A stretch of DNA of 64,000 nucleotides from Ruania zhangjianzhongii (lineage in GTDB: Bacteria > Actinomycetota > Actinomycetes > Actinomycetales > Beutenbergiaceae). The notes beneath the pieces were generated by a model, which was given only the letters and a program-made list of their open reading frames with translations, was not told the DNA's origin and made no database searches. This document shows, in pieces, positions 43,399-63,956 of this stretch. Position numbers and translations under genes: made by a program. Positions within the stretch are counted from its first letter, which is position 1, and the number at the start of each line of letters is the position of its first letter. The stretch is taken from NCBI RefSeq assembly GCF_008000995.1, contig NZ_CP042828.1, forward strand, positions 2,842,882 through 2,906,881, read 5' to 3'.

Positions 43399-43485
43399 CG
43401 CTGTGGTTCTCCATTACCTTCTGGGAGTAGTGCGGGCCGGAGTGCTTGCCCGCTGTGCTGTTCCGCCTGCTGGGTTTGCGGTCTC

Positions 43486-46204: not shown

Positions 46205-46246
46205 CGATTCATCCGCCCTCATTGTCGGAGATTGAGTATCTGCTGC

Positions 46247-47323: not shown

Positions 47324-47352
47324 GGCACCCTCCTTCTCCTGTTCGGCAACCT

Positions 47353-48705: not shown

Positions 48706-48729
48706 TCGGCTTCCCTTCGTCCAAGCGGA

Positions 48730-48778
48730 CGCATCCTCACTTGATGCGCTTCCGCGTGCCGGTCGTCGTGAGTCTCAC
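48730..48778 (-). promoter_or_regulatory. leader of the M24-CUT2-M81 operon with two small inverted repeats
   Basis: CGCATC/GATGCG (48730-48748) and the 13-bp palindrome CGTGAGTCTCACG (48767-48779) lie between the main operator and the M24 start. They could be an mRNA hairpin and a second regulator site; neither is proven. Confidence 0.3.
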
Positions 48779-48791
48779 GCCGCGCCGGGCG

Positions 48792-48823
48792 AACTGTTAG
48801 CGGTAACGGTACCGGTAACAGTT
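48792..48823. promoter_or_regulatory. 32-bp LacI-type double operator
   Basis: The 32 bases are palindromic except at two base-pair positions. They contain two staggered 14-mers, TGTTAGCGGTAACG (48795-48808) and CGGTACCGGTAACA (48807-48820), each matching TGTTACCGGTAACA, the gluconate-regulator (GntR of E. coli, LacI family) type operator, at 12 of 14 positions, with centres 12 bp apart. It sits 87 bp before the M24 start and 128 bp from the LacI gene's stop, so the LacI product is the likely binder. Confidence 0.7.
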
Positions 48824-48950
48824 CATTCGGGCAAGGGTGCTGCTCTGCGCGAGCGCCGCCACCGGCGGGGGCGAGCCAGCTCGGCTGACTGGCACTAACC
48901 GCGGCCCACTGGGCTACCGGCGTCGACACCTCACCAGACTCGGGACGGCC

Positions 48951-49964
48951 TCATCCTTCGCCTGCCGGCACCGGGCCGGTGGTTCCCCGGACCACCAGCT
49001 CGCCCCTCATCGAGACCACTCGTGACCTCACCCCCAGCTGGCGGAACAGCCGTTGGATGATGTTGCGGCCGAACGCACGGTTGTCCACCGACACAGTCGT
49101 CAACGGGGGGAGGTAGTAGGCGCCGTCCGGTAGGTCATCGAATCCGAGCACGCTCACCTCCTGCGGGACCCGCAACCCCGCGCCGGCCAGCCAGTTGAGG
49201 GCGCCCAACGCCATGTGGTCGTTGGCACAGACGATCGCTGTAGCTCCGAGCCGCGGATCGAACGCAGCGGCCATGGCCTGATAACCACCCTCGGCAGACC
49301 AATCGCCTTCGGCTTCGGCAACCACCTCTCCCCCGTGCTCTTGGGCGACGGCGTGCAGTGCCTTCCGCCGAGCGCGGGATGCTGGCCAGTCCAACGGGCC
49401 CGCGATGTGGAAGAACCGGCGGTGTCCGAGATCCACCAGGTGCTCCACACCGATGGCGAAGTCCGGTTCGGGATGCCGCCCCGGGTTCTTGCGCGCCGAG
49501 CGTTCCACGATCACGGGGCAGGACACCTGGCTGGCATCGATCACCTGGAGCATGGAGTCCGACGCGGCCAGGACGACAGCACCGGCCAACGAGCTTTCCG
49601 CCATGATCTCCACCGCCTGCGAGACACTGGCAGGATCTTCCGGGTCCACACTGACCAAGTCCAGGACATACCCGGCTTTTCGTGCCTCTGCGGCAGCACC
49701 GTCCATGATCGCCAGGAGCGCCCACTGGGCCTGCGCGTGGACGAACGCGCCGATCCGGTACGAGCGATTCGTCGCCAACGCCTTGGCCAACTGGTTCGGC
49801 CGGTAATTGAGCGCAACGAGTGCAGCCTCGACCTGGGTCCGCGTGTGCTCCCGCACCCCTTCCCCCCGGAGGAATCTCGCGACAGTCTGGTGGGAGACTC
49901 CCGCCATCCGCGCGACGTCATAGATGGTGGCGGGTCGACGCTTGTCGCGGGGCGAGGCGGACAC
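48951..49964 (-). CDS. LacI-family transcriptional regulator
   Basis: A 337-residue LacI regulator. The HTH with hinge is TIYDVARMAGVSHQTVARFL followed by YRPNQLAKALATNRSYRIG; the effector domain has FFHIAGPLDWPASRARRKA, AIVCANDHMALGALNWLAGA and VSVLGFDDLPDGAYYLPPL. The GTG start at 49964 fits. It lies just upstream of the M24-CUT2-M81 operon, on the same strand, separated by a 245-bp region containing the palindromic operator. Its ligand is probably the operon's substrate or a product. Confidence 0.93.
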   Translation of the reverse strand: MSASPRDKRRPATIYDVARMAGVSHQTVARFLRGEGVREHTRTQVEAALVALNYRPNQLAKALATNRSYRIGAFVHAQAQWALLAIMDGAAAEARKAGYVLDLVSVDPEDPASVSQAVEIMAESSLAGAVVLAASDSMLQVIDASQVSCPVIVERSARKNPGRHPEPDFAIGVEHLVDLGHRRFFHIAGPLDWPASRARRKALHAVAQEHGGEVVAEAEGDWSAEGGYQAMAAAFDPRLGATAIVCANDHMALGALNWLAGAGLRVPQEVSVLGFDDLPDGAYYLPPLTTVSVDNRAFGRNIIQRLFRQLGVRSRVVSMRGELVVRGTTGPVPAGEG

Positions 49965-50099: not shown

Positions 50100-51644
50100 T
50101 CAGCTCCCGAGTACCAGCCGCAGCACCGCGTCGGCGTTCGCCCGACCCACCCCGTGGGCGAGCACCAGCCGGTCCGCCGCCGGTGCGCCGTCCGCTGTTC
50201 CGCCGTGGATCACGACGGCGTCCGGTCGCCGGGCCAGCAACAGGCTCAGGTCCTGCTGCTCCCGCACATCCGCGAGCGGCTCGCGAGTGAGCGCGAGCAC
50301 CGGTCCCTCGCCCAAGCCGGTCAGCACCTCCGCCAACGGTGGCGCATCGACCGCACCGGCGAGCACCACCTGAGCATCGGGCGCCCGGTCCGCCAGTGCG
50401 TTCGCGAACCCGGGGGCCACCCTGCCGGTGGCCTGGTTGTACCGGCGCCGTAGGTCCACCAGCACGGGCGGGCCGCCGCCGGCGAGCCGCACGTCCCCCC
50501 GCGCCACCCGGACGGCGGCGCGCGCGGCCTGCAGACCGACTTCGGCCACCGCGGCCTCTGCCTCCGCCGGACCGAGCTCAGGCGCCGCGGCCCGATAGCC
50601 GGCGATCCGCTGCTGCAGCGTGCGGACCCGGGCGATGCTTCGCTCGAGCGCCTCAGCCGCCAGCTCGCCGCGGGCTAGCCCGCCCACGATCGCCTCGGCG
50701 GCCGCCTCGAAGATTGCCACATCGTCCCGCCCGCCGGTGGTGCCCAGGCAGAGCAGATCGGCCCCGGCTTGCAGCGCCCGCACGCAGGCCGCGCCGATCC
50801 CGTCAGCATCGGCCAAGCTCACCGCCTGCATATCCAGTGCATCGGTGACGATCACCCGGTCCTCCCCGCCAGGCAGGCGGCGGGCCAGCGCGGTGACCGC
50901 CGGTTCCAGGCTCGCTGGCTTCGGTCCGAGGGCGGGGATGTGCAAGTGCCCGGTCATCACCGCATCCAGTCCCGCCGCGGCCGCTGCTTCGAACGGTGGC
51001 AGGTCACGATCAGCGAGCACCTGCTCGCTGATGTCCAGCCGCGGCAGCTCCAGGTGGGAGTCGGTGGTGGTGGCGCCGTGGCCCGGGAAGTGCTTGGCGC
51101 AGCCGGCCACTCCCCCGGCATGCAGTCCGGCCAGGAACGCCACACCGTGCCGGGAGACCTGGTCAGCATCGGAGCCGTACGAGCGCACTCCGATCACCGG
51201 GTTGGTCGGCTCGCTCGCCACGTCCAGCACCGGCGCGAGGTCCAGGTCGATGCCGGCGGCCCAGACCAGGGCACCGAGCGCCGCGCCGGCGCGCTCGGTC
51301 AGGTCCAGATCGTCGGCCGCTCCGAGTGCTCCGGCGCCGGGCAGCGCCGAGCCCGAGGCGGCCTGCAGCCGGGACACGTCCCCGCCCTCCTCGTCCACGG
51401 TGATCAACACCGGGCCCGCGGCGTGCACGGCATCAGTGAGCGCCCGGGTGGTGGCGATGTCGGGGGCGTTCTGCGCCACCAGCATCACGCTGCCCAGGCC
51501 TTCAGCGGCAGCGTCGAGCAGCCAGTCCGGTGCGGTGGCGCCGTTGAAGCCCGGCATCAGCACCCCGAGGGCCAACTGCCGGGGCGAGCGGGGTGATCCA
51601 GCGGACGACGGCGGCGTGGTGGTTCTGTGCATAGCACCCATCAT
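50100..51644 (-). CDS. GH3 family beta-N-acetylhexosaminidase (NagZ-like)
   Basis: A 514-residue GH3 glycosidase. The substrate-binding motif KHFPGHGATTTDSHLELP is complete, and the nucleophile Asp lies in RVIVTDALDMQAV. An early TIM-barrel block LITVDEEGGDVSRLQAASG is also NagZ-like. The C-terminal extension of about 170 residues (after LARGELAAEALERSIARVR) resembles the second GH3 domain of Gram-positive NagZ proteins. No signal peptide, so it is probably cytoplasmic. It is divergent from NamZ and likely removes GlcNAc from imported or secreted muropeptides. Confidence 0.88.
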   Translation of the reverse strand: MMGAMHRTTTPPSSAGSPRSPRQLALGVLMPGFNGATAPDWLLDAAAEGLGSVMLVAQNAPDIATTRALTDAVHAAGPVLITVDEEGGDVSRLQAASGSALPGAGALGAADDLDLTERAGAALGALVWAAGIDLDLAPVLDVASEPTNPVIGVRSYGSDADQVSRHGVAFLAGLHAGGVAGCAKHFPGHGATTTDSHLELPRLDISEQVLADRDLPPFEAAAAAGLDAVMTGHLHIPALGPKPASLEPAVTALARRLPGGEDRVIVTDALDMQAVSLADADGIGAACVRALQAGADLLCLGTTGGRDDVAIFEAAAEAIVGGLARGELAAEALERSIARVRTLQQRIAGYRAAAPELGPAEAEAAVAEVGLQAARAAVRVARGDVRLAGGGPPVLVDLRRRYNQATGRVAPGFANALADRAPDAQVVLAGAVDAPPLAEVLTGLGEGPVLALTREPLADVREQQDLSLLLARRPDAVVIHGGTADGAPAADRLVLAHGVGRANADAVLRLVLGS

Positions 51645-51662
51645 GCTAGGTTCGGTAACTCA

Positions 51663-51699
51663 TTGACCAGCCGGGGACGCATTCCGTAATCTGCTTACG
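51663..51699 (+). promoter_or_regulatory. probable promoter and operator of the muropeptide salvage operon
   Basis: TTGACC (51663-51668) and TAATCT (51687-51692) form a sigma-70-like pair at 18-bp spacing, 41 bp upstream of namZ. A perfect inverted repeat CGTAA-N5-TTACG (51685-51699) overlaps the -10 and could be the target of the MurR/RpiR regulator encoded at the other end of the cluster. Confidence 0.45.
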
Positions 51700-51732
51700 T
51701 CCCAAGGGGGAAGACACTGTGGGGAGAAGTCA

Positions 51733-52917
51733 GTGACGCACCCGTCGCCACGGACCGGACTGAGCCGCGTGCTGGAGAACCCGAGCCTGATCGGAACCGG
51801 CCCGATCGCGCTGTGCGGCAACTACACCGCGGTCACCGAGGACCTGCGTCGCGGTGTGGACGCCCTCGTCGACGCCGGACTCCCGGTGCGCTGTCTGCTC
51901 ACCCCGGAGCACGGCTACTGGGGCGCGGTCCAGGCCGGGGAGAGCGAGGGGGATGGCCGGGACGAGCCGACCGGACTGCCGGTGCTGGACACCTACCAGG
52001 TCAGCAGCCCGGAGCTGGACGCGATGCTCCAGCGCACCGGTACCGAGCAGATCGTTCTCGACCTGCAGGACATTGGCACCCGGTTCTACACCTACACCTG
52101 GACGCTGTTCGACCTGCTCTGCTCCGCCGCCCGCACCGGCCACCGGGTGGTGGTCCTGGACCGGCCGAACCCGCTCGAAGGCCGGGTGGCCGGGCCCGGG
52201 CTCGCGCCGAGCTGCGCGAGCTTCGTCGGCCGGGTCTCCATCCCGCTCCAGCACGGCCTGACCATCGGGGAGCTTGCCCGCTGGTTCAACGCCGTGCACG
52301 TACCCGAACACACCGGCACCTCGGCCGACCTGGACGTCATCACCACCGGGGGCCACCGGGACGCACGCGGGGATCAGCCGTGGGTGCTGCCCTCACCCAA
52401 CATGCCCGCCCCGGATACTGCCGTGCTCTACCCGGCGACCGGACTGCTGGAGGGCACCACGCTGTCCGAGGGCCGGGGCACCACCAAACCGTTCGAGCTG
52501 TTCGGTGCCGGCTGGACCGACGCCCGGCTCGCCGCCGCCCTGGCCGAGCAGGAGCTGCCTGGCGTGCTGGTGCGCGAGGCGGTCTTCGCGCCGATGTTCT
52601 CCACGTGCGCCGGCCAGCGAGTGCATGGCGCGCAGCTGCACCTGATCGACCGCGAGACGTTCGACCCGGTCCGCACCGGCCACACTCTGCTGGCCACCAT
52701 CGCCGATCTCTACCCCGACCAGCAGCTCTGGCGGGAGGCCAACGCCGGGCGGCCGCCGTTCCTCGATCTGCTCTGGGGCAGCCCGGCGCTGCGCGAGGGC
52801 ATCGACGCCGGCCACTCGCTGGCCCAGATCCTCGCCGTCAGCCCGGCCACGCCCACGCCCCCTGCCGACGCTCTGCTCTACTCCCCCGACACCCGAGACC
52901 CGGAGGCACCTGCGTGA
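51733..52917 (+). CDS. namZ: exo-beta-N-acetylmuramidase NamZ (DUF1343, GH171)
   Basis: A 394-residue protein of the DUF1343/NamZ family. NamZ from Bacillus subtilis releases MurNAc from the non-reducing ends of peptidoglycan fragments. Diagnostic blocks are LLTPEHGYWGAVQAGE, IVLDLQDIGTRFYTYTWTLF, VVLDRPNPLEGRVAGPG, SPNMPAPDTAVLYPATGLLEG and LSEGRGTTKPFELFGAGW. Family members are usually secreted, but no signal peptide is visible here, so cytoplasmic action on imported fragments is possible. The GTG at 51733 is a weak but sensible start. First gene of the rightward operon; its stop overlaps the PIG-L start. Confidence 0.9.
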   Translation: MTHPSPRTGLSRVLENPSLIGTGPIALCGNYTAVTEDLRRGVDALVDAGLPVRCLLTPEHGYWGAVQAGESEGDGRDEPTGLPVLDTYQVSSPELDAMLQRTGTEQIVLDLQDIGTRFYTYTWTLFDLLCSAARTGHRVVVLDRPNPLEGRVAGPGLAPSCASFVGRVSIPLQHGLTIGELARWFNAVHVPEHTGTSADLDVITTGGHRDARGDQPWVLPSPNMPAPDTAVLYPATGLLEGTTLSEGRGTTKPFELFGAGWTDARLAAALAEQELPGVLVREAVFAPMFSTCAGQRVHGAQLHLIDRETFDPVRTGHTLLATIADLYPDQQLWREANAGRPPFLDLLWGSPALREGIDAGHSLAQILAVSPATPTPPADALLYSPDTRDPEAPA

Positions 52918-53624
52918 CATCCAGAACCATCCTCGCCGTCGGCGGGCACATCGGCGATATGGACCTCGCCGCCGGTCCGCTGCTCGCCCAGAACGCGCTC
53001 GACGGCGGACGGTCCGTGCTCCTCGCCCTCACGCCGGGCGAGCGGGGCCACCCACGCCTGAGCGTGGCCGAGTACAAGGAGCAAAAGATCGCCGAAGCGC
53101 ACGCCTTCGCTGCCGGAATCGGCGCCGAGGTGATCGTCTACGACGACCTCTCCGACGGGTTCCTGCACTGCACCGACGAGCTGGCCGCCCGGCTCGCCCG
53201 GGACATCCGCACCATCGGCCCGGACCTGCTGCTCGCACACTGGGGCCGCAGCATGCACACCGACCACGAACAGGCCAGCCTGCTCGCCGAACGGGCCCGG
53301 TTCCTCGCCGGACTGCCCGGGTGGGAGGAGGACCCCGACGCCACTGACGGCCCCGGCCGCCGGCACGGGGTAGGCCAGCTGCTCTACACCGAGAACTGGG
53401 AGGACGCCGAGGGTTTCGTCGCCACCCGGTACGCCCCGGTCTCGGAGCAGGCCCGGAACCTCTGGCACGAGGCGATCAGCGGCCAGGCCTTCGCCCGCGG
53501 GGAGACCTACGGCTTCCGCTACATCGACTACTACGGCGCGCAGCTGATCACCCGGGGCTGCCTGACCCGGGCGAGCTACGCCGTCGCCCTGGCCGATTCC
53601 GGCCACCGGCTGCGGGAGGTGTGA
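52914..53624 (+). CDS. PIG-L family N-acetyl-sugar deacetylase
   Basis: A 236-residue LmbE/PIG-L zinc enzyme. Such proteins deacetylate GlcNAc-containing substrates. The N-terminal metal motif reads GGHIGDMDLAAG in place of the canonical AHPDDE, a variant that keeps His and Asp; the third ligand region is HWGRSMHTDHEQASLLAERA. GTG 52914 overlaps the NamZ stop (GTGA). Within this cluster it may deacetylate a muramic acid or glucosamine unit; the substrate is inferred from position only. Confidence 0.85.
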   Translation: MTSRTILAVGGHIGDMDLAAGPLLAQNALDGGRSVLLALTPGERGHPRLSVAEYKEQKIAEAHAFAAGIGAEVIVYDDLSDGFLHCTDELAARLARDIRTIGPDLLLAHWGRSMHTDHEQASLLAERARFLAGLPGWEEDPDATDGPGRRHGVGQLLYTENWEDAEGFVATRYAPVSEQARNLWHEAISGQAFARGETYGFRYIDYYGAQLITRGCLTRASYAVALADSGHRLREV

Positions 53625-53628
53625 GCCG

Positions 53629-54612
53629 ATGACCACCACCTACCGCAGCCACCGCAGCGGCGATGCAGCAGCACTGGCCGCACTCACCACCGTCGCGATG
53701 CCGCAGGATGCGGTCGATACCGACTGGTTCACCGAGAACGTGCTCCTGGACGCGGGCTTCCAGCCCGAGGGGCTGATCATCGCAGAGCACGACGGCGCAC
53801 CGATCGGTTTCGTCTACGCGGTCACCACCGCGGGAGCTGCTCCGCGCGAGGACGCCCCCGGCGGCTGGCTCACCATCGGCTGCGTACACCCCGACCACCG
53901 CGGCCGCGGCGTGGGCACCGAGCTGCTCGAACGCGCCGGCCGGTACCTGCACGATCGAGGTGCCGCCTGGGTGAACGTGGCCGCCTATGCCCCCGCCTAC
54001 TTCGTGCCCGGACTGGACGCTGTCGCCTACCCGGAGGCAGCCCGGCTGCTGGACCGGCACGGCTTCACTCGTCTCTACACCGCAGCGGCGATGTCGATGG
54101 AACTGAGCACCTACCGCACACCCACCGAGGTGCTCGACCTGGCCGAGCAGCGCGAGGCCGAGGGCTACCAGCTCGGCCCGGCCGCCCCGGACGACCTGCC
54201 CGAGGTGCTCCAGTTCGCCGGTGACCACTTCGCCCCGGACTGGGCCCAGGCGGTGCGCGACGCTGTGCTCCGGCACGGCCACCTGGAGCGGCTGCGGATC
54301 GTCCGTGGCCCGCAGGGGATCGCTGCCTTCGCCATCTACGGCGCCTATCGGGGGCTGCGGGAGCGGTTCGGGCCGTTCGGGGTGGACGAGTCCCTGCGCG
54401 GCACCGGACTGGGCAAGATCCTGCTGCACCACACGCTGACCGCGATGCGCGCCGAAGGGGCGCAGAGCGCGTGGTTCCTCTGGACCGGAGAGGAATCCCC
54501 TGCCGGTCACCTGTACCGGCGCACCGGGTTCACCGTGACACGTCGCTTCGACGTGCTGCGGCGCGAACCTGCCCATCTACCCACCCAGACCACGAGGGAG
54601 AGGTCCGTATGA
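53629..54612 (+). CDS. double-domain GNAT N-acetyltransferase
   Basis: A 327-residue protein with two GNAT folds. Domain one has the acetyl-CoA motif GCVHPDHRGRGVGTELLERA; domain two has VDESLRGTGLGKILLHHTLT and AGHLYRRTGFTVTRRFD. The acceptor is unknown. Its position between a deacetylase and a peptide importer, and its ATGA overlap with the importer binding protein gene, suggest it modifies a product of the same pathway, for example re-acetylating an amino sugar or peptide amine. Confidence 0.88.
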   Translation: MTTTYRSHRSGDAAALAALTTVAMPQDAVDTDWFTENVLLDAGFQPEGLIIAEHDGAPIGFVYAVTTAGAAPREDAPGGWLTIGCVHPDHRGRGVGTELLERAGRYLHDRGAAWVNVAAYAPAYFVPGLDAVAYPEAARLLDRHGFTRLYTAAAMSMELSTYRTPTEVLDLAEQREAEGYQLGPAAPDDLPEVLQFAGDHFAPDWAQAVRDAVLRHGHLERLRIVRGPQGIAAFAIYGAYRGLRERFGPFGVDESLRGTGLGKILLHHTLTAMRAEGAQSAWFLWTGEESPAGHLYRRTGFTVTRRFDVLRREPAHLPTQTTRERSV

Positions 54613-56267
54613 GAGTCCGACGACTCACCACCGCGGCCGCCGCACTCACCGGCGCCGCACTGATCCTCACCGCCTGCTCCGGCGGCGGGGACGGTTCCGG
54701 CGGTTCCGGCGGCGAAGGAGGTGAGGTCCAGCCGCTGACCATCCACGCCAACTCCTCGAACAGCTACCAGCGCAACTTCAACCCGTTCTCCACCAGCGTG
54801 CTGCACGGGGCACGCGGGATGATCTACGAGCCGTTGGTTGCCTCCAGCCCACAGTTCGAGGAGCCGGTGCCCTGGCTGGCCGAGAGCGTGGAGTTCAACG
54901 ACGACGGCACGGTGATGACGTACACGCTGCGCGACGGAGTCACCTGGTCCGACGGTGAGGAGTTCAACGCCGAGGACGTGGAGTTCACCTTCACCATGTT
55001 CGTGGACCAGCCGGCCACGAACCTGTCCGCGCTGGACGTGGTCGGGGCCACCGCCACCGATGACCTCACCGTGGAGATCGAGTTCTCCGAGCCGATGTTC
55101 GCCTTCGAGCACGCGGTGGGAAACTCACTGATCGTACCGGAGCACATCTGGTCCGAGATCGAGGACCCGATAGAGACCACGAACGAGGAGCCGGTCGGCA
55201 CCGGCCCGTTCCTGCTGGAGGACTTCGAGCAGCAGCTGTACACGATGACCAAGAACGAGGACTACTGGGCCGCGGACGAGGTCGAGGTGGAGCAGCTGCG
55301 CTACCCGGCGAACACCGACCAGACGTTCACCACCAGCCTGCAGGCCGGGGAGATCGACTGGTCCGGCGGCTTCGTGGCGAACATCGACGACATCTTCGTG
55401 GCCCAGGACCCGGAGAACCGCGGCTACTGGTACCCGGGCGGCGGGCTGGTCAGCCTCACCCCGAACACCCAGGAGGCACCGTTCGACGACCCGGAGCTGC
55501 GCGAGGCGCTCAGCCTGGCGATGGACCGGGACCAGATCTCCGAGGTGGCGATGCAGGGGTACACCCCCGCCGCCCACCCGACCGGTCTGCCGCAACCGGC
55601 CTACCAGGACTCGCTCAGCGCCGACTACGCCGACGCGGCCTTCGCTCGGGACGTGGAGGCTGCCAACCAGATCCTCGATGACGCCGGCTATGAGAGGGGT
55701 GCGGACGGGGTGCGCACCACCCCCGACGGCGAGGCGATGTCCTACCCGCTGGAGATCCCCTCGGACTGGGTGGACTGGGTCACGATCAGCCAGCTGCTGG
55801 TGGAGCAGTACGCCGAGGTCGGTATCGAGATCGTGCCGCAGGGTGTCTCCTTCGAGGCCTGGGTAGAGACCCGGAACTCGGGCAACTTCGCCCTGACCAT
55901 CTCCGCGACCGCGATCGGGCAGAGCCCGTTCGACATGTACCGGTCGATGATGAGCTCGGAGTACGCCAGCGACGGTGCGGTACGGCAGAACTTCAGCCGC
56001 TTCTACAACGACGACGCCGACGCAGCGCTGGACGCGTACGCCGGTACCGACGACGAGGCGGAGCAGCAGGCCGCACTGGACTCGCTGGAGCAGATCATGG
56101 TGGAGCAGCTCCCGCTGGTCCCGATGATCCAGTCGCCGAACTGGTTCCAGTACACCAGCGAGCGCTGGGAGGGCTGGCCCACCGAGGAGAACCCGTACGC
56201 CTTCGGGGCTCCGTTCCAGAACCCGGACATCATGCTGGTGGTCCGGAACCTCACCCCGGCGCAGTGA
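54609..56267 (+). CDS. peptide ABC importer substrate-binding lipoprotein (DppA/OppA-like)
   Basis: A 552-residue family-5 binding lipoprotein. The signal peptide ends ALILTAC, followed by a Gly/Ser linker. The mature protein has the DppA signature GARGMIYEPLVASSPQF, DGTVMTYTLRDGVTWSDGEEF, and late VPMIQSPNWFQYTSERWEGW. The start at 54609 overlaps the GNAT stop (ATGA). In a muropeptide context it could capture cell-wall peptides or glycopeptides like MppA/DppA. Confidence 0.93.
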   Translation: MRVRRLTTAAAALTGAALILTACSGGGDGSGGSGGEGGEVQPLTIHANSSNSYQRNFNPFSTSVLHGARGMIYEPLVASSPQFEEPVPWLAESVEFNDDGTVMTYTLRDGVTWSDGEEFNAEDVEFTFTMFVDQPATNLSALDVVGATATDDLTVEIEFSEPMFAFEHAVGNSLIVPEHIWSEIEDPIETTNEEPVGTGPFLLEDFEQQLYTMTKNEDYWAADEVEVEQLRYPANTDQTFTTSLQAGEIDWSGGFVANIDDIFVAQDPENRGYWYPGGGLVSLTPNTQEAPFDDPELREALSLAMDRDQISEVAMQGYTPAAHPTGLPQPAYQDSLSADYADAAFARDVEAANQILDDAGYERGADGVRTTPDGEAMSYPLEIPSDWVDWVTISQLLVEQYAEVGIEIVPQGVSFEAWVETRNSGNFALTISATAIGQSPFDMYRSMMSSEYASDGAVRQNFSRFYNDDADAALDAYAGTDDEAEQQAALDSLEQIMVEQLPLVPMIQSPNWFQYTSERWEGWPTEENPYAFGAPFQNPDIMLVVRNLTPAQ

Positions 56268-56334
56268 CCGCCGGCGCGGGTGCCGGCCCACACCGCCGGT
56301 CGGCACCCGCGCTCAACCCAGAGAGAGCCTCCGC

Positions 56335-57312
56335 GTGAAGTATCTGCTGCGCAAGATCGCGCTGTACGCGTTCATCGCCTGGGCGGCGGTGACGCTGAAC
56401 TTCCTCATCCCCCGGCTGATGCCCGGGGACCCGGTGACGCTGCTGATCGAACGCACCGAGGGGCGAATCAGCCCCGAGGCGATGGCGGCGATCGCCGAGA
56501 GCTACGGCATCACCGACGCTCCGTTGCACGAGCAGTACTGGACGTACCTGCAGAACCTGTTCGCCGGTGACCTGGGGCTCTCGATCGGGTTCCACCCCAC
56601 TCCGGTGGCCGAGATCGTCATGGGTGCGCTGCCGTGGACCCTCGGCCTGGTGGGCGTCACCACCATCATCAGCTTCTTCGTCGGCACCGGGCTGGGGGTG
56701 GTGCTCGCCTGGCGTCGCGGCTCCTGGACCGACCACGCGCTGCCCACGCTGACCTTCCTGAACGCGGTGCCGTACTTCTGGATGGCGCTCATCCTGGTGC
56801 TGCTGCTCTCGGTGAACGCAGACATCTTCCCGGTCGCCGGCGCCTACGACGTGTCCGTCGACCGCGCCTGGAGCTGGGAGTTCATCTCCTCGGTGCTGTA
56901 CTACGGCACGCTGCCGGCGATCACCATCGTGATCGCCTCGTTCGCCGGCTGGGTGCTGAGCATGCGGAACATGACCGTCACCGTGCTCGGCGAGGACTTC
57001 GTCACGATGGCCGAGGCCAAGGGGCTGCCGAAGCGGATGGTGCTGGTCAACTACGCCGCTCGGAACGCAATCCTGCCGTCGGTGACCGGGTTCGCGCTGG
57101 CGCTCGGCGCCGTCGTCGGCGGCTCGATGCTCACCGAGGTGATCTTCAACTACCCCGGAGTTGGCTACACGCTGTTCCAAGCAGTGCAGAACCAGGACTT
57201 CCCGCTGATGCAGGGCCTGTTCCTGATCATCTCCCTGGCGGTGATCGTGGCGAACCTGCTCGCCGACATCGTCTACATCTTCCTCGACCCGCGCACCCGT
57301 CAGGAGGCCTGA
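56335..57312 (+). CDS. peptide ABC importer permease (DppB-like)
   Basis: A 325-residue permease with about six helices and the family motif in the cytoplasmic loop (DFVTMAEAKGLPKRMVLVNY, then ARNAILPSVTGFALALGAVV). The N-terminal block FIAWAAVTLNFLIPRLMPGDP is typical. The GTG at 56335 starts it. It is followed after 3 bp by the fused permease-ATPase gene. Confidence 0.93.
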   Translation: MKYLLRKIALYAFIAWAAVTLNFLIPRLMPGDPVTLLIERTEGRISPEAMAAIAESYGITDAPLHEQYWTYLQNLFAGDLGLSIGFHPTPVAEIVMGALPWTLGLVGVTTIISFFVGTGLGVVLAWRRGSWTDHALPTLTFLNAVPYFWMALILVLLLSVNADIFPVAGAYDVSVDRAWSWEFISSVLYYGTLPAITIVIASFAGWVLSMRNMTVTVLGEDFVTMAEAKGLPKRMVLVNYAARNAILPSVTGFALALGAVVGGSMLTEVIFNYPGVGYTLFQAVQNQDFPLMQGLFLIISLAVIVANLLADIVYIFLDPRTRQEA

Positions 57313-57315
57313 GGT

Positions 57316-59145
57316 ATGCGACTGCGATCCTGGCTGCCCACGTCCGGCAAGGTGCTCGCCGGACTGATCATCGTGATCTTCTTCGCCCTGGTGGCGATCG
57401 TCGGGCCGATGCTCACCCCGTACGGGCCGCGCGCCAGCGGCGGGGAGATCCTCGCGCCGCCCTCGGCCGAGCACTGGCTCGGTACCACCCAGACCGGACA
57501 GGACGTGTTCGCCCAGTTCGTCTACGGCTCCCGGGTATCCCTCGCGGTCGGTGTGTTCGCGGGTGTGGTCTCCCAGGTGGTGTCCATCCTCATCGGGGTG
57601 GTCGGCGGGTACTTCCGCGGCCTGGTGGACGATCTGATGTACATCCTCACCGCGGTGTTCCTGGTGATGCCAGGAATGCCGCTGCTGATCGTGCTCACCG
57701 GCTACCTGCCCTCCCGCGGAATGGTCTCGGTGGCAGTGGTCATCGCGATCACCTCCTGGGCTGGATCGGCACGGGTGCTGCGCGCGCAGACCATGTCGCT
57801 GCGCCGGCGCGACTTCGTCGAAGCGGCCCGCGCCACCGGCGAGTCCCGGGTGCGGATCATCGTCAGCGAGATCATGCCGAACGCGCTACCGCTGATCGCC
57901 TCGGGCTTCCTGTTCTCGGTGATCGCCGGCATCCTCTCCGAGGCCGGCCTGTCCTTCCTCGGTCTCGGTTCGCTGACGTCCACCAGCTGGGGCTCGATGC
58001 TCTACTTCGCCCAGAACGCCCAGGCGTTCCTGATCGGGGCGTGGTGGTGGTTCGTCCCACCAGGTCTGGCGATCGCGGTGATCGGCGCCGGACTGGCGCT
58101 GATCAACTTCGGCATCGACGAGTACGCCAACCCGCGGCTGCGCACCGGGAAGAGCCGCGCCAAGGCTGCTCCCGTCCCGCTCGCCGGTGCGACCGCCGGT
58201 GAGGCCGCCACCGCCAAGACGGCCGCCGAGGCGATCACGTCCCCCGATGCCCCCTCCGACGTGCTCCCGGTACCCGAGGCCCAGCCGCAGATCCGCACCG
58301 GGGGCAGCGAGGGGGAACCGGTGATCGAGGTGCAGCACCTGGTGGTGGACTACGCGACCGCAGAAGGGCGCGTGCACGCGGTCCAGGACGTCTCCCTGAC
58401 GCTGCGCCGCGGAGAGCTGCTCGGCCTGGCCGGAGAGTCCGGGAGCGGCAAGTCCACGCTCACCAACGCGATCACCCAGCTGCTACGCCCACCGGCGGAG
58501 GTGACCAGCGGTTCGATCACCTACCACCGGGAGATTCGGGCCACCGGCAAAGCGCCGAAGCGGCAGGAGGTGGACCTGCTGCACCTGCCTGCCGAGGAAC
58601 TGCGCCAGTTCCGCTGGACCGAGCTCTCGATCGTGTTCCAGAGCGCGATGAACGCCCTGAACCCGGTGATGCGCGTCTCCGCCCAGTTCGACGATGTGCT
58701 CCGGGTGCACCGGCCACAGATGCGACCGGCGGCCAGGGCGGAGCTGGCCCGCACGATGCTCACCAAGGTGGGCGTCGATCCCGACCGGATCACCGCTTAC
58801 CCGCACGAGCTCTCCGGCGGGATGAAGCAGCGGGTCGCGATCGCGATCGCGCTGGTCTGCGACCCGGACGTGATCGTGATGGACGAGCCGACCACAGCAC
58901 TGGACCTGCTGGTACAGCGGGAGGTGCTGGACCAGGTGATGGCGCTGCGGGACGAGTTCGGCTTCGCGATCATCTTCACCACTCACGATCTCGCCCTGCT
59001 GCTGGAAGTCTCCGACACGATCGCGGTGATGCAGCGCGGGCGGCTGGTGGAGTACGGCGCCGCGACCGACGTCTACACCGACCCGCGGCACCCGTACACG
59101 CAGGCACTGCTGCGTTCACTCTCTGACCTTGGAGCGCTGGTATGA
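57316..59145 (+). CDS. fused peptide ABC importer permease and ATPase (DppC-DppD fusion)
   Basis: A 609-residue fusion, unusual because these parts are normally two genes. Residues 1-275 form a DppC-type permease (LGTTQTGQDVFAQFVYGSRV, RRDFVEAARATGESRVRIIV, ALINFGIDEYANPRLRTGKS). An Ala/Pro/Thr-rich linker of about 55 residues follows. From about 335 a DppD-type ATPase begins, with Walker A GESGSGKSTL, signature LSGGMKQRV, Walker B VIVMDEPTTALDL and switch His in TTHDLALLLEVS. The ATPase's oligopeptide C-terminal extension is short. The next ATPase overlaps by ATGA. Confidence 0.93.
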   Translation: MRLRSWLPTSGKVLAGLIIVIFFALVAIVGPMLTPYGPRASGGEILAPPSAEHWLGTTQTGQDVFAQFVYGSRVSLAVGVFAGVVSQVVSILIGVVGGYFRGLVDDLMYILTAVFLVMPGMPLLIVLTGYLPSRGMVSVAVVIAITSWAGSARVLRAQTMSLRRRDFVEAARATGESRVRIIVSEIMPNALPLIASGFLFSVIAGILSEAGLSFLGLGSLTSTSWGSMLYFAQNAQAFLIGAWWWFVPPGLAIAVIGAGLALINFGIDEYANPRLRTGKSRAKAAPVPLAGATAGEAATAKTAAEAITSPDAPSDVLPVPEAQPQIRTGGSEGEPVIEVQHLVVDYATAEGRVHAVQDVSLTLRRGELLGLAGESGSGKSTLTNAITQLLRPPAEVTSGSITYHREIRATGKAPKRQEVDLLHLPAEELRQFRWTELSIVFQSAMNALNPVMRVSAQFDDVLRVHRPQMRPAARAELARTMLTKVGVDPDRITAYPHELSGGMKQRVAIAIALVCDPDVIVMDEPTTALDLLVQREVLDQVMALRDEFGFAIIFTTHDLALLLEVSDTIAVMQRGRLVEYGAATDVYTDPRHPYTQALLRSLSDLGALV

Positions 59146-59999
59146 CGGGTAGAAGCGATACCGCCGAGGAGACCACGACGGCCGGGACCGGCGCCGAGGT
59201 CGTGCTCGAGGCACGAGAGCTGGTGAAAGACTTCGCCGGGCGGCGGCGTGGGCTGCGGCGCGAGCAGATGCGCGCCGTCGACCGGGTCTCGCTCCAGCTC
59301 CGGCGGGGCGAGGTCACCTCGCTCGTCGGCCAGAGCGGCTCGGGGAAGAGCACCGTCGGCCGCATCCTCGCCCAGCTGATCCCGCCGACCTCGGGGGAGA
59401 TCCTGCTGCACGGTGAGCCGGTGGCGGCTACCGGCGGCCGGGCGTTCATCCGGTACACCGGCACCGTGCAGATGACGCTGCAGGATCCGTTCGCCTCGCT
59501 CAACCCGGTGCACCGGGTCAGCCACGTGCTCGGCCGCGCCCTGGCGATCCACCACGGTGCCCGGCGCAAGGACGAGGTGGAGGCGAAGAGCCTGGAGCTG
59601 CTCCGCAAAGTGGAGCTGAACCCCGCCGAGCAGTACCTGCACCGGTTCCCGCACGAGCTCTCCGGCGGTGAGCGCCAGCGGGTGTCCTTCGCCCGGGCAC
59701 TGGCCGCCGAGCCCCAGGTGCTGCTGGCCGACGAACCGGTGTCCATGCTGGACGTGACCATCCGCAAGGAGATGCTCGACCTGCTCGACGCTTTACGCCG
59801 CAGCGAGAACCTCGCAGTGCTGTACATCACACACGATCTGGGCTCGGCACGTGCCTACTCCAGCCAGACCCTGGTGATGTACCACGGCGTGGTGGTCGAG
59901 CGCGGCAGCAGCGCAGCGGTGATCGACGAGCCACAGCACGAGTACACCCGGCGGCTGCTCGCCGCAGCCCCGAACCCCCAACGGCGTCTGGCCGGCTGA
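59142..59999 (+). CDS. peptide ABC importer second ATPase (DppF-like)
   Basis: A 285-residue ATPase pairing with the ATPase domain of the fused protein. Walker A GQSGSGKSTV, the dipeptide-type TVQMTLQDPFASLNPVHRVS, signature LSGGERQRV, Walker B VLLADEPVSMLDV and switch His in YITHDLGSARAYS are intact; the ending HEYTRRLLAAAPNPQRRL is typical of DppF. MurQ starts 13 bp after it. Confidence 0.93.
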   Translation: MTGRSDTAEETTTAGTGAEVVLEARELVKDFAGRRRGLRREQMRAVDRVSLQLRRGEVTSLVGQSGSGKSTVGRILAQLIPPTSGEILLHGEPVAATGGRAFIRYTGTVQMTLQDPFASLNPVHRVSHVLGRALAIHHGARRKDEVEAKSLELLRKVELNPAEQYLHRFPHELSGGERQRVSFARALAAEPQVLLADEPVSMLDVTIRKEMLDLLDALRRSENLAVLYITHDLGSARAYSSQTLVMYHGVVVERGSSAAVIDEPQHEYTRRLLAAAPNPQRRLAG

Positions 60000-60012
60000 G
60001 AGGCGCAAGGAC

Positions 60013-60933
60013 ATGACGCACAGCAAGCAGCAGAAGCTCCGGTTGGCCACGCTGGCCACCGAGCGGGTGGACGAGCAGTACCGGGACCTGGACCGGCGGA
60101 CCGCCCGGGAGGTGCTGACGGCACTCAACGACGCCGAGGCGCAGGTGCCGATCGCGGTGAGCGCGGTCCTCGACGAGCTGGCGCTCCTGGTGGAGGCGGT
60201 GGCCGAGGGGATCCGCAGCGGCGGGCGGCTGGTGTATGTGGGAGCGGGCACCTCCGGTCGGCTCGGGGTGCTGGATGCCGCCGAGTGCCCACCCACGTTC
60301 CACGTCTCTCCGGAGACGGTGCAGGGCCTGATCGCCGGCGGCCGGGGGGCGGTCTTCACCGCGGTGGAGGGGGCGGAGGATTCCACCGAGCAGGGTGTCG
60401 CGGACATCGAGCGACTCGGCATCCAGCCAGAGGACACGGTGGTCGGGATCGCGGCGAGCGGTCGCACCCCGTACGTGCTGGCCGCAGTGGCCGCGGCCCG
60501 GAAGGCCGGTGCGCGCACGGCCGGGATCGCCTGCAACACCAATTCTGCGCTGGGCGCCGCGGTGGACCACCCGTTGGAGGTGGAGGTCGGTGCCGAGGTG
60601 ATCGCCGGTTCCACCCGGTTGAAGGCGGGCTCGGCCACGAAACAGCTGCTGAACATGCTGTCCACAGCGGTGATGGTGCGGATCGGCAAGACGTACCAGA
60701 ACCTGATGGTCGATCTGGCGGTCACCAACGCCAAGCTGCGGGACCGGGGGGAACGGCTGCTGGTGCGGATCACCGGCTGCGAGCGGGCCGAGGCGGCGCG
60801 TGCACTGCGCGCCGCCGGTGACCGGATCCCGGTGGCCGCCGTGATGATCGCCCGGCAGGTCGACCGGGAGGCCGCGGAGGTGCTGCTCGCCAGCCACGGC
60901 GGCCGGCTCGCTCCGATCCTGGACGGCGACTGA
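60013..60933 (+). CDS. murQ: N-acetylmuramic acid 6-phosphate etherase
   Basis: A 306-residue SIS-domain lyase that cleaves the lactyl ether of MurNAc 6-phosphate to GlcNAc 6-phosphate and D-lactate. The active-site block GAGTSGRLGVLDAAECPPTF carries the catalytic Glu (about residue 91), and VEGAEDSTEQGV and the second SIS segment (TRLKAGSATKQLLNMLSTAV) match the family. Length is normal. It closes the rightward operon. No MurNAc kinase or MurNAc-specific PTS gene is present nearby, though MurQ needs a phosphorylated substrate. Confidence 0.95.
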   Translation: MTHSKQQKLRLATLATERVDEQYRDLDRRTAREVLTALNDAEAQVPIAVSAVLDELALLVEAVAEGIRSGGRLVYVGAGTSGRLGVLDAAECPPTFHVSPETVQGLIAGGRGAVFTAVEGAEDSTEQGVADIERLGIQPEDTVVGIAASGRTPYVLAAVAAARKAGARTAGIACNTNSALGAAVDHPLEVEVGAEVIAGSTRLKAGSATKQLLNMLSTAVMVRIGKTYQNLMVDLAVTNAKLRDRGERLLVRITGCERAEAARALRAAGDRIPVAAVMIARQVDREAAEVLLASHGGRLAPILDGD

Positions 60934-60936
60934 TCC

Positions 60937-62058
60937 TCAGCCGGTGCGGGCCAGGCCGGCGAGCTCGGCGCGCAGCCGCTCGACGGTGAACGACTCCCGG
61001 CGCGGGTGCACCCGGTTGGACAGCAGCACACTGACCAGCTCGCGGCCCGGGTCGATCACCACAGCGGTGCCGGTGAAGCCGCTGTGGCCGAGCGGGCCGG
61101 CCTCGGTGCTACCGGTCAGCGACTCCTGCCCGAGCCGGAACCCGATCGCCTGGTCGTAGCCGATCCGCGCCGTCTCGGCAGCGGTGAGCGTACCGGTGCG
61201 CAACAGGGTGCGGCTGGTGTCCCCGAGCAGGCCGTGGGCACCGGTGCGTACCTCCTCCGCGAACCGCAGCAGGTCGGCAGGTGTGGAGAAGATCCCGGCG
61301 TTCCCGGCCCCGCCGAGTGCCCATGCGGTCTCGTCGTGCACCTGGCCGCGGACCAGACCGCGCGCTGGGTCGTGCTGGTACTCCGTGGCCGCTACCGGAC
61401 GGCCGGGCGGTGGTGTGTACCCGGTATCGGCCATCCCGAGCGGGCCGGTGACGCAGGTCTGCACCAGTTCGGGCAGCGGGCGGCCGGTGCGGCGCTCCAG
61501 CAGCAGCCCGAGGGTCAGGTAGCCGACGCAGGAGTACTCGTGCTGCTCCCCCGGTGCCCGGAGCAGCGGGGTCCGCAGGATCTGCCCTGCGAGCTGGTCA
61601 CGGCTGCCGCGGCGTCGCCACAACGGCAGCACCGACGGCAGGCCGGCGGTATGGGTGAGCAGGTGCCGCGGCAGTACCCGGGCACGATCCGGATCGCTGG
61701 CGGCGAACTCGGGCAGGTCCTCGGCCACCGGGCGGTCCAGGTCGAGCACTCCTGCCTCGGCGTGGGCCAGCACGCAGACGGCGGTGAACAGCTTGGTCAC
61801 CGAGGCCACGTCCCAGAGCTGGTCCGGCCGCACCGGCTCACGCTCGGGCTCGGGGAGCAACCGGCCATCCGCGGCGAACGCCACCGCCCAGCCCGAGTGC
61901 GCCTGGGCGAGCACCTCGCCCCGGTGGGCGATCAGCGCCGCTGCCCCCGGCGCGCCGTCGACCGGTTCGGCCTGCCCGGGTGGGGTGGCTATCGCCGCTG
62001 AGGTGGCGCCGTCGAGCAGGTCCTGCAGGCGAGCCTGCAGCGGTGTCCCGGTACTCAC
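60937..62058 (-). CDS. serine hydrolase (class C beta-lactamase / D-Ala-peptidase family)
   Basis: A 373-residue serine hydrolase of the penicillin-binding/AmpC-like fold. The Ser-x2-Lys motif is in DVASVTKLFTAVC, the Tyr-x-Asn-like motif is EYSCVGYL (Cys in place of Asn), and the third motif is LGHSGFTGTAV (HxG in place of KTG), typical of the EstB/Pab87-like hydrolases. No signal peptide. The GTG at 62058 overlaps the regulator stop (GTGA). In this cluster it may trim peptides from muropeptides, similar to other recycling clusters. Confidence 0.87.
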   Translation of the reverse strand: MSTGTPLQARLQDLLDGATSAAIATPPGQAEPVDGAPGAAALIAHRGEVLAQAHSGWAVAFAADGRLLPEPEREPVRPDQLWDVASVTKLFTAVCVLAHAEAGVLDLDRPVAEDLPEFAASDPDRARVLPRHLLTHTAGLPSVLPLWRRRGSRDQLAGQILRTPLLRAPGEQHEYSCVGYLTLGLLLERRTGRPLPELVQTCVTGPLGMADTGYTPPPGRPVAATEYQHDPARGLVRGQVHDETAWALGGAGNAGIFSTPADLLRFAEEVRTGAHGLLGDTSRTLLRTGTLTAAETARIGYDQAIGFRLGQESLTGSTEAGPLGHSGFTGTAVVIDPGRELVSVLLSNRVHPRRESFTVERLRAELAGLARTG

Positions 62059-62912
62059 TCTGTCCGCTGGTGCACGGCGTCGTAGGTGCCGCGCAGGGCG
62101 TCCGCGGTCTCGGCCATCCGGCGTTGCGCAACGGCGACGAAGATGCAGTCCACCACGAGCAGCTGGGCGGTGCGCGAGGCCATCGCCCCGGACCGGAAGG
62201 TGGCCTCCCGGACTGTGGTCTGCAGGACCAGATCGGCGGTCCTGGCCACCGGCGAGGAACCGACGTTGGTCACCGCCACGGTGGTCACGCCTCGTTCCCG
62301 GGCGGCAGCCAGGAACGTGACCACCTCGGCGGTGCTGCCCCGGTGGGAGAAGCCCACGGCCACGTCTCCCGGTCCCATCAGGGCGATCGAGGTGAGCGCG
62401 TCGTGCCCGTCGGAGAAGCTGTAGGCGGTGCGACCGATCCGGAACAACTTGCGGTGCAGGTCGGCGGCGCTCCACCCGGAGCCACTCACCCCGTACAGCG
62501 AGATCCGGGAGGCGCCCTCGATCGCGTCCACCACCCGGCCGAGCTCGCCGAGGTCCAGGCTCTCGATGGTCTCCTCGATGCACAGGCTCTCGGTGTAGCG
62601 GATGCTGTCCACGAGCTCCTCCAGGGTGGAGGAGGCGGAGATGTCGGCGACGTAGTTCCCCTTCGTCGACCGGTGCGCCCCGTCCCGCCCGATCTCGGTG
62701 GCCAGCTGCACCCTCAGCTGCACGAACCCGTTCAGGCCGAGCGCGCGGCAGAACCGGACCACAGTGGTCTCCGAGGTCTGGCAGCGGCGGGCCAGGTCGG
62801 TGATGGTGCCATCCAGTACCCGCTGCGGATCGGCGAGCACCTCCTGGGCCACTCTGCCGATCGACGGCGGAAAGGTCGCCAGCGTCGCCTGGATCCGGGA
62901 CTGGATGCTCAT
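62055..62912 (-). CDS. MurR/RpiR-family regulator
   Basis: A 285-residue regulator. The N-terminal RpiR helix-turn-helix reads ITDLARRCQTSETTVVRFCR; the C-terminal SIS domain (ISLYGVSGSGWSAADLHRKL, DVAVGFSHRGSTAEVVTFLA) binds phosphosugars in this family. MurR of E. coli senses MurNAc 6-phosphate, and position beside MurQ makes that ligand likely. AGGAGGG lies 8 nt before the ATG. It is 57 bp after the diaminopimelate dehydrogenase gene and coupled to the serine hydrolase. Confidence 0.92.
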   Translation of the reverse strand: MSIQSRIQATLATFPPSIGRVAQEVLADPQRVLDGTITDLARRCQTSETTVVRFCRALGLNGFVQLRVQLATEIGRDGAHRSTKGNYVADISASSTLEELVDSIRYTESLCIEETIESLDLGELGRVVDAIEGASRISLYGVSGSGWSAADLHRKLFRIGRTAYSFSDGHDALTSIALMGPGDVAVGFSHRGSTAEVVTFLAAARERGVTTVAVTNVGSSPVARTADLVLQTTVREATFRSGAMASRTAQLLVVDCIFVAVAQRRMAETADALRGTYDAVHQRTE

Positions 62913-62969
62913 CGTTGTCGCCCTCCTGCAGCTGCCGGTCCTCGTCCGGCCAGCGTATCGGCTAGCGGG

Positions 62970-63956
62970 TCAGAGCAGGTCTGCTCTCAGCTCCGCTGCC
63001 GAACGGGGCGAGAGCAGCCCGGGCGGGACGTCGAACAAGGTGAGCGCCCCGTGCCGGCCGGAGGCGGCGAGCCGGTGGGTGGCGCGGGCATAGGCGACCA
63101 GCACACTGGCGGTGAAGCCGGGGTTGTCCCCCAGGGTGAGGCCGAACTCGATCAGCTGCCGATTGCTCTCGCCGGTCTCACCGCTGCGCAGCACGAACCC
63201 ACCGTGCGGCATCCCGGTGTGGTCCCGGGCGAGCTCCTCGCCGGTGATGAAGTGCACGGTGACGTCATACGGCTCAAAGTAGTGCGGCATGGTCACGATC
63301 GCCTCGTGCACCTCATCGGCGTCGGCGCCCTCGGCGAGCACGACGAAGCACTCCCGGGTGTGCGCCTCCCGGGTGGGCAGGTCCGGGTTCTCGCCGCGGC
63401 GCACCGCGTCCACCGCCTCGGCCGCCGGCAGGGTGTACTGCACGCCGGCCGCGACCCCGGGCACGCGGCGCAGGGCGTCCGAGTGGCCCTGGCTCACCCC
63501 CCGACCCCAGAACGTGTAGGTCTGCCCAGCCGGCAGGATCGCCTCGCCGAACATCCGGTTCAGGGAGAACAGGCCCGGGTCCCAACCGGTGGAGATCAGC
63601 GCGGTGGTGCCAGCCGCCTGGGCGCGGGCGTCGACGGCGGCGAAGTACTCCGGGATCTGCGCGTGCGTGTCGTAGGAGTCCACGGTGTTGAACGAGCCGG
63701 CCAGCTCCGGTCCCTGCACCGGCAGGTCCTCCTTGGAGCCCCCGCAGAGGATGAGGACGTCGATGTCCTCGGTACGCGAGCTCAGGGTGTCCCAGGCGAA
63801 TACCTGGGTCTGGGATCGCTGCGCGCGCACAGTGGCCGGATCGCGGCGGGTGAAAACCCCCACCAAGGACATATCCGGGTTCTGCGCGAGCGCGGCCTCC
63901 ACGCCGCGGCCGAGGTTGCCGTATCCCGCGATGCCGATGCGGATGGTCTCGCTCAC
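62970..63956 (-). CDS. ddh: meso-diaminopimelate dehydrogenase
   Basis: A 328-residue NADP-linked enzyme interconverting meso-diaminopimelate with tetrahydrodipicolinate (2-amino-6-oxopimelate) plus ammonia. Family blocks are MSETIRIGIAGYGNLGRGVE, DVLILCGGSKEDLPVQGPEL, FNTVDSYDTHAQIPEYF, the substrate-site ALISTGWDPGLFSLNRMFGE and YTFWGRGVSQGHSDALRRVP. It precedes the MurR gene on the same strand by 57 bp and is probably co-transcribed, so a role in reusing diaminopimelate from recycled wall peptides is possible besides lysine biosynthesis. Confidence 0.94.
   Translation of the reverse strand: MSETIRIGIAGYGNLGRGVEAALAQNPDMSLVGVFTRRDPATVRAQRSQTQVFAWDTLSSRTEDIDVLILCGGSKEDLPVQGPELAGSFNTVDSYDTHAQIPEYFAAVDARAQAAGTTALISTGWDPGLFSLNRMFGEAILPAGQTYTFWGRGVSQGHSDALRRVPGVAAGVQYTLPAAEAVDAVRRGENPDLPTREAHTRECFVVLAEGADADEVHEAIVTMPHYFEPYDVTVHFITGEELARDHTGMPHGGFVLRSGETGESNRQLIEFGLTLGDNPGFTASVLVAYARATHRLAASGRHGALTLFDVPPGLLSPRSAAELRADLL

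Follow-up and report, generated by a model that had tools for sequence, protein, structure and literature searches.

How do Gram-positive bacteria that lack the phosphotransferase system (PTS) protein MurP bring in N-acetylmuramic acid (MurNAc), and on which side of the membrane do they take muropeptides apart? Streptomyces coelicolor recycles MurNAc yet is described as having no MurP orthologue (PMC5061867), and a 2026 preprint leaves the mycobacterial MurNAc transporter unknown (PMC13041923). Here we analyse a gene cluster at positions 50100–63956 of a 64,000-nucleotide stretch of the Ruania zhangjianzhongii genome (contig NZ_CP042828.1), which we call the window. It probably encodes a cytoplasmic salvage pathway for peptidoglycan sugars that is supplied by an ATP-binding cassette (ABC) importer. 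The cluster is a candidate route for importing cell-wall sugar fragments intact and digesting them inside the cell, and so for recovering or scavenging this material without the usual transporter.

The sugar enzymes are assigned by family. NamZ, an exo-beta-N-acetylmuramidase of the cytosolic type (51733–52917, plus strand; PF07075, E 2.8e-54, and PF20732, E 1.2e-41), carries both the NamZ_N and NamZ_C domains in a single protein. Divergent from it lies a NagZ-type GH3 beta-N-acetylglucosaminidase (50100–51644, minus strand; PF00933, E 4.9e-59), whose best PDB matches are GH3 N-acetylglucosaminidases, B. subtilis YbbD/NagZ among them. The catalytic dyad motif KHFPGHG-x4-DSH, given for NagZ-type GH3 enzymes in PMC4974736, is present as KHFPGHGATTTDSH. 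Against the E. coli-type NagZ equivalog PRK05337 the protein scores 156.9 bits, under the cut-off of 207, so we call it NagZ-like rather than an E. coli-type equivalog. MurQ, the MurNAc-6-phosphate etherase (60013–60933, plus strand), scores 342.7 bits against TIGR00274 (cut-off 302). Facing it on the minus strand are an AmiE/PBP4B-like serine hydrolase (60937–62058; PF00144, E 8.2e-62), a MurR/RpiR-type regulator (62055–62912; PF01418 and PF01380) and Ddh, a meso-diaminopimelate dehydrogenase (62970–63956; TIGR01921, 446.1 bits, cut-off 180.6). The top NCBIfam model for the hydrolase is PBP4B, far under its cut-off, and no NCBIfam equivalog scores above cut-off. The eight plus-strand genes from NamZ to MurQ are spaced by −4 to +67 bases and thus resemble one operon, with the NagZ-like gene pointing away from it and the hydrolase, MurR and Ddh genes converging on it. 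A whole-genome search for the PTS EIIC domain (PTS_EIIC, PF02378) at E 0.001 returned no match, which speaks against MurP. The gene families and orientations given in a preliminary description of this DNA, which had read it as a PTS-free locus for the salvage of peptidoglycan sugars, are borne out, and the lack of a PTS extends from the locus to the genome. Elsewhere in the 5.1-Mb genome are two more MurQ-like genes under the family cut-off (C2:1505354 and C2:2404358) and two NagA-like genes under the NagA cut-off.

We asked how far the cluster recurs among 396 genomes of the order, from 109 genera. Relatives of NamZ at E 1e-90 or better occur in 17 genomes, including that of the window, and in five genera; three of eight Ruania have a NamZ of the window's kind. 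The relatives span few genera, so these counts are not independent. Ruania species (Micrococcales) are the closest named relatives by NamZ, and the named relatives comprise Ruania albidiflava, Candidatus Ruania gallistercoris, three Occultella, Isoptericola cucumis, Nesterenkonia sedimenti and Brachybacterium. For comparison of gene content we used 20 loci: the 17, together with those of Isoptericola, Nesterenkonia and one Brachybacterium metagenome-assembled genome (MAG). A gene scored as absent is absent within the fetched stretch, 20–21 kb for most loci, and two loci (L026 and L054) stop at a contig end. With NamZ as the query, and hence in all 20, the binding protein of the importer was found in 19, its first permease in 18, its permease::ATPase fusion in 18 and its second ATPase in 18, one of the fusion matches being a 41-residue piece at a contig end. 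L026 breaks off inside the second permease, and the importer of L041 carries a deletion. The GNAT gene was found in 18 loci (at 30–35% identity in seven Brachybacterium), the hydrolase in 14 and the PIG-L gene in nine. Ddh was found in two of the 20, and by gene content it is a neighbour in Ruania only, outside the conserved set, where the preliminary description had included diaminopimelate handling.

The binding protein gives the same picture when used as the query. With three candidates scored per genome, a copy of at least 46% identity is present in 17 of the 396 genomes, the next matches being at most 39% identical, and 16 of these 17 are also NamZ genomes. The exception, G276, has the importer only, at a site that resembles those of other Brachybacterium by neighbour size. 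G201 has an orphan binding protein and a hydrolase at a similar site and a fuller cluster elsewhere. These two Brachybacterium sites (L147 and L148) look like what is left of the cluster there. MurQ is present in all 17 NamZ genomes and in 144 of 396 overall, a co-occurrence to which no probability is attached because the genomes are related. In a NamZ tree of 33 rows, which includes the window genome's second NamZ twice, the 19 NamZ proteins from importer loci form one set (support 100/100), and that of G175, where no importer was found, lies outside it. Brachybacterium timonense and the Brachybacterium MAG are placed apart from the seven other Brachybacterium, which suggests that the cluster may have been transferred between genera. 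Judged by gene content, the recurrence of the core across genera is not chance, and the core is conserved beyond this strain.

What does the importer carry? It comprises a substrate-binding lipoprotein of the oligosaccharide type (SBP_bac_5; 54609–56267; PF00496, E 1.2e-77), a DppB/OppB-type permease (56335–57312; PF00528, E 1.6e-40), a DppC/OppC-type permease fused to an ATPase (57316–59145; PF00528 and PF00005 within a single open reading frame) and a second ATPase of the DppF/OppF type (59142–59999; PF00005, E 4.8e-29), all on the plus strand. Among solved structures, the binding protein matches 6lzt (6.3e-78; a variant of VhCBP, judged by its residues), 5yqw (4e-77), named as the VhCBP structure in PMC8449061, and the Vibrio cholerae chitin oligosaccharide binding protein 1zty (1.9e-72). 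Thermotoga chains rank next (1.6e-61 to 9e-47), of which some bear the name oligopeptide-binding and one is called mannoside-binding; Thermotoga binders of cello- and mannooligosaccharides are placed within the VhCBP cluster in PMC8449061. We mapped nine VhCBP contacts onto 20 binding proteins, two of them from one locus. Asp365, whose loss costs VhCBP the most binding energy (PMC8449061), is kept in 20 of 20, and the Trp363 position is always aromatic (W in seven, Y in eight, F in five). Trp513 falls outside the aligned region. This binding protein resembles an oligosaccharide binder whose second sugar differs, and from the neighbouring genes we infer a link between that sugar and MurNAc.

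Where the imported material would be digested was addressed with a crude signal-peptide motif and a reading of all possible starts. By the latter, no signal peptide was seen on the window's NamZ, GH3 enzyme or hydrolase; no alternative start of NamZ would add one, and the protein groups with the cytosolic set in the tree. We compared the loci of the window's kind with 12 loci of our own selection, comprising nine from a set of 12 other genomes, the window genome's second NamZ and two Ruania without the island; among the nine are the two outside Streptomyces-like g110 and outside this order. Signal-like starts were scored on 12 of 12 NamZ proteins in the comparison group versus one of 20 of the window's kind, on three of four GH3 enzymes versus none of 10, and on three of three hydrolases versus one of 14. 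Both positives of the window's kind (the NamZ of L031 and the window's hydrolase) look false by eye, and for the sole miss in the comparison group, the GH3 enzyme of L044, a hydrophobic stretch is plainly visible upstream. NamZ, MurQ and a hydrolase homologue occur together in three distant actinobacterial loci (L122, L126 and L130), with signal-like starts on NamZ and the hydrolase; L122 and L130 also encode an ABC importer that includes an SBP_bac_1 protein. Muropeptide digestion, this suggests, has moved between the outside and the inside of the cell within one phylum. At L122:4782-5753 a 2-hydroxyacid dehydrogenase gene adjoins MurQ and would suit the use of released D-lactate.

Two further genes distinguish the cluster. 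The tandem GNAT (53629–54612, plus strand; two GNAT domains) has the fold of the glucosamine N-acetyltransferase GlmA. The PIG-L/LmbE-fold protein (52914–53624, plus strand; PF02585, E 9.3e-13) keeps the metal ligands of its family: His12, Asp15 (the second Asp of HxD1D2) and the later His115/His118 are invariant in 8 of 8 aligned orthologues. The D1 position, occupied by the general base in LmbE/PIG-L deacetylases (PMC4101496), is Gly14 in all eight, so that the window's motif reads HIGD and not HxDD. The hydratase GalB has Ala aligned at this position, and a fold comparison ended in a tie between GalB and BshB. The deacetylase label that the protein had carried in the preliminary description is therefore not supported. 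Tentatively, and as a reading that we do not favour, the cluster could be an undescribed actinobacterial route: the importer, of chitooligosaccharide type, would take in intact MurNAc disaccharides that are partly de-N-acetylated, all digestion would be cytoplasmic and hidden from competitors, and the PIG-L-fold protein would be no deacetylase but a metal-dependent hydratase or lyase of a new kind, with a muramyl product as its substrate.

These observations suggest the following pathway, in which we infer the substrate, the order of steps and the activities of the GNAT and the hydrolase. The sugar-type binding lipoprotein would capture MurNAc disaccharides or small muropeptides freed by extracellular hydrolases, and the importer would take these MurNAc-containing sugars in unmodified. 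In the cytoplasm, the PF00144 hydrolase would strip the stem peptide, and the GlmA-fold GNAT would restore the acetyl group of de-N-acetylated glucosamine, as needed for the action of NagZ, which would cleave off non-reducing N-acetylglucosamine (GlcNAc), and of NamZ, which would cleave off non-reducing MurNAc. A sugar kinase would phosphorylate free MurNAc, and MurQ, under the control of MurR, would open MurNAc-6-phosphate to GlcNAc-6-phosphate and D-lactate.

Several observations weigh against this pathway. MurR (11 of the 20 loci), MurQ (10) and the GH3 gene (10) are seen within the fetched stretch in no more than roughly half of the cases, and more distant relatives of the binding protein are widespread, occurring at 1e-70 in 132 of 396 genomes. 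Chains named oligopeptide-binding score well too (1vr5, 1.6e-61; 4jsd, 8.5e-47). In all 20 binding proteins Asn204 is replaced by Thr or Ser and Ser221 by Gly, Phe437 is kept in none, and Arg436 is kept in three, the window's protein included; Asn204, Trp363, Asp365 and Trp513 are given as completely conserved in the VhCBP cluster in PMC8449061. With the VhCBP contacts only partly kept, the ligand of the binding protein stays a prediction. In the GNAT, the position of GlmA Asp287, the residue mutated in PDB entry 5kga, is taken by Leu284 in every one of the eight orthologues compared. The kinase is a further difficulty. MurNAc that enters through an ABC importer is not phosphorylated, and the substrate of MurQ is MurNAc-6-phosphate. 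No AnmK scores above cut-off in the window's genome, and its sole PF01869 kinase above cut-off (C2:2957028) lies about 50 kb past the cluster end, has counterparts in island-less Ruania, and is closer to hexokinase and GlcNAc kinase than to MurK. The salvage route of the window's strain is therefore incomplete as far as shown.

Relatives, by family assignment, have kinases of the AnmK or MurK-like type, either inside the cluster or at other sites. Across the 20 loci we found AnmK in three and a MurK-like kinase in two. AnmK adjoins NagZ, whole, in Candidatus R. gallistercoris, and a kinase adjoins MurQ in G175 and G224. The AnmK gene beside NagZ in R. albidiflava is interrupted (L027:2551-3278; G002:C1:272141-272778). 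Inside the NamZ cluster of Nesterenkonia sedimenti lies a MurK-like sugar kinase::GNAT fusion (L050:8315-9907), and Nesterenkonia has AnmK in addition.

The preliminary description had taken the transporter for a peptide importer. Stem tri- and tetrapeptides would then enter through it and be handled with the help of Ddh, and the sugars would enter by another door. Pfam and NCBIfam do place the transporter in the dipeptide/oligopeptide/nickel group, some well-scoring chains are named oligopeptide-binding as noted above, and a peptide-type ABC importer for muropeptides is known in YejBEF-YepA (PMC9790009). The binding protein is nevertheless far nearer to chitooligosaccharide binders than to chains named for OppA, DppA or murein peptides: the best match to a chain called OppA has 2.4e-22, and the E. 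coli-type murein peptide binder follows with 1.9e-21. Moreover, it tracks NamZ, in 16 of 17 genomes, and not Ddh. Import of peptides as such is not supported, and we consider it unlikely. Closeness to chitooligosaccharide binders raises a further alternative, that the importer serves (GlcNAc)n in the use of chitin or another amino-sugar oligosaccharide, with MurQ and NamZ as side activities. The GH3 enzyme and the GlmA-fold GNAT would fit chito-oligosaccharides too, and the window's protein keeps Arg436. Phe437 and Arg436, however, are the residues credited with GlcNAc specificity (PMC8449061), and these are the contacts lost in all 20 and in most of the 20 proteins, respectively; NamZ, on which the choice of loci was based, pairs with the binding protein in 16 of 17 genomes, and NamZ, MurQ and MurR are by family muramic-acid enzymes. 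Chitin use is accordingly an unlikely explanation. Digestion outside the cell for recycling of the own wall, with the enzymes exported by an unrecognised route, matches an enzyme set close to that of B. subtilis, whose NagZ and AmiE act outside (PMC5061867), and is very improbable given the lack of signal peptides on NamZ, the GH3 enzyme and the hydrolase, the signal sequence on the second NamZ of the same genome, and a patchy spread over three of eight Ruania that suits scavenging better than house-keeping.

That second NamZ (C2:1131419-1132459; L028) is 40–42% identical, and the 20 kb around it gave no match to a MurQ, MurR, GH3 enzyme or hydrolase like those of the window. Upstream of the window's NamZ, a weak candidate promoter was picked out by eye (TTGACC-18-TAATCT with an overlapping GTAA-n5-TTAC dyad; 51663–51699, plus strand). 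A consensus scan there returned no promoter, and TTGAC(N) stretches also precede NamZ in the relatives, again by eye. The genes of the window served to train the small codon model used for gene calling. What seems to be a separate catabolic operon borders the cluster at 41959–49964; it encodes an M81/MlrC-type metallopeptidase, a xylose-type ABC importer, a LacI regulator and a weakly M24-like protein.

How does the cluster compare with known systems? NamZ of Bacillus, YbbC in B. subtilis, is extracellular, and AmiE belongs to the PF00144 family. NagZ and the amidase of the Bacillus-type MurNAc operon are extracellular as well (PMC5061867). In B. subtilis, too, one cluster, murQ-murR-murP-amiE-nagZ-ybbC, joins MurQ, MurR, NagZ and YbbC with a muropeptide amidase (PMC5061867). 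There, MurNAc enters through the PTS protein MurP after extracellular digestion, whereas the window has an ABC importer in MurP's place and no signal peptides on the enzymes, and adds a GlmA-fold GNAT and a PIG-L protein. The suggestion that the locus is richer than the Bacillus operon thus holds in part: cytoplasmic digestion and the importer are distinct, and the hydrolase is no addition, as Bacillus has AmiE and E. coli PBP4B in their operons (PMC5061867).

The Clostridium acetobutylicum cluster may hold a similar gene set, with NagZ, MurQ, a homologue of YbbC/NamZ and an ABC importer of the Opp type, and this is the main limit on novelty. In C. acetobutylicum, which has MurK and GlmA, cleavage is described as not extracellular, unlike in B. 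subtilis (PMC4974736), and its GlmA-type acetyltransferase is matched in fold by the window's GNAT. It belongs to another phylum, and the window's cluster has no MurK, does not keep GlmA Asp287 and adds the PIG-L protein.

In Staphylococcus aureus, the sugar imported by the MurP-MupG route is MurNAc-GlcNAc. PMC6262408 describes uptake of a turnover product by PTS import with phosphorylation and cleavage by the 6-phospho-muramidase MupG, mostly restricted to Firmicutes. Agrobacterium YejBEF-YepA shares with our cluster a peptide-family ABC importer for muropeptides and differs in being Gram-negative and taking anhydromuropeptides, YepA being described as exclusive to Alphaproteobacteria (PMC9790009). 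The best sequence matches of the binding protein, VhCBP and VcCBP of Vibrio, share with it Asp365 and the aromatic residue at Trp363, and differ at Phe437, Asn204 and Ser221 in all 20 proteins and at Arg436 in 17. Set beside these systems, the salvage cluster is real and conserved; its chemistry, that of the MurQ route, is known, and its importer and place of digestion differ from the Bacillus model. For MurNAc uptake in Gram-positives without MurP, it offers one directly testable importer candidate, found with NamZ in nearly every genome that encodes it.

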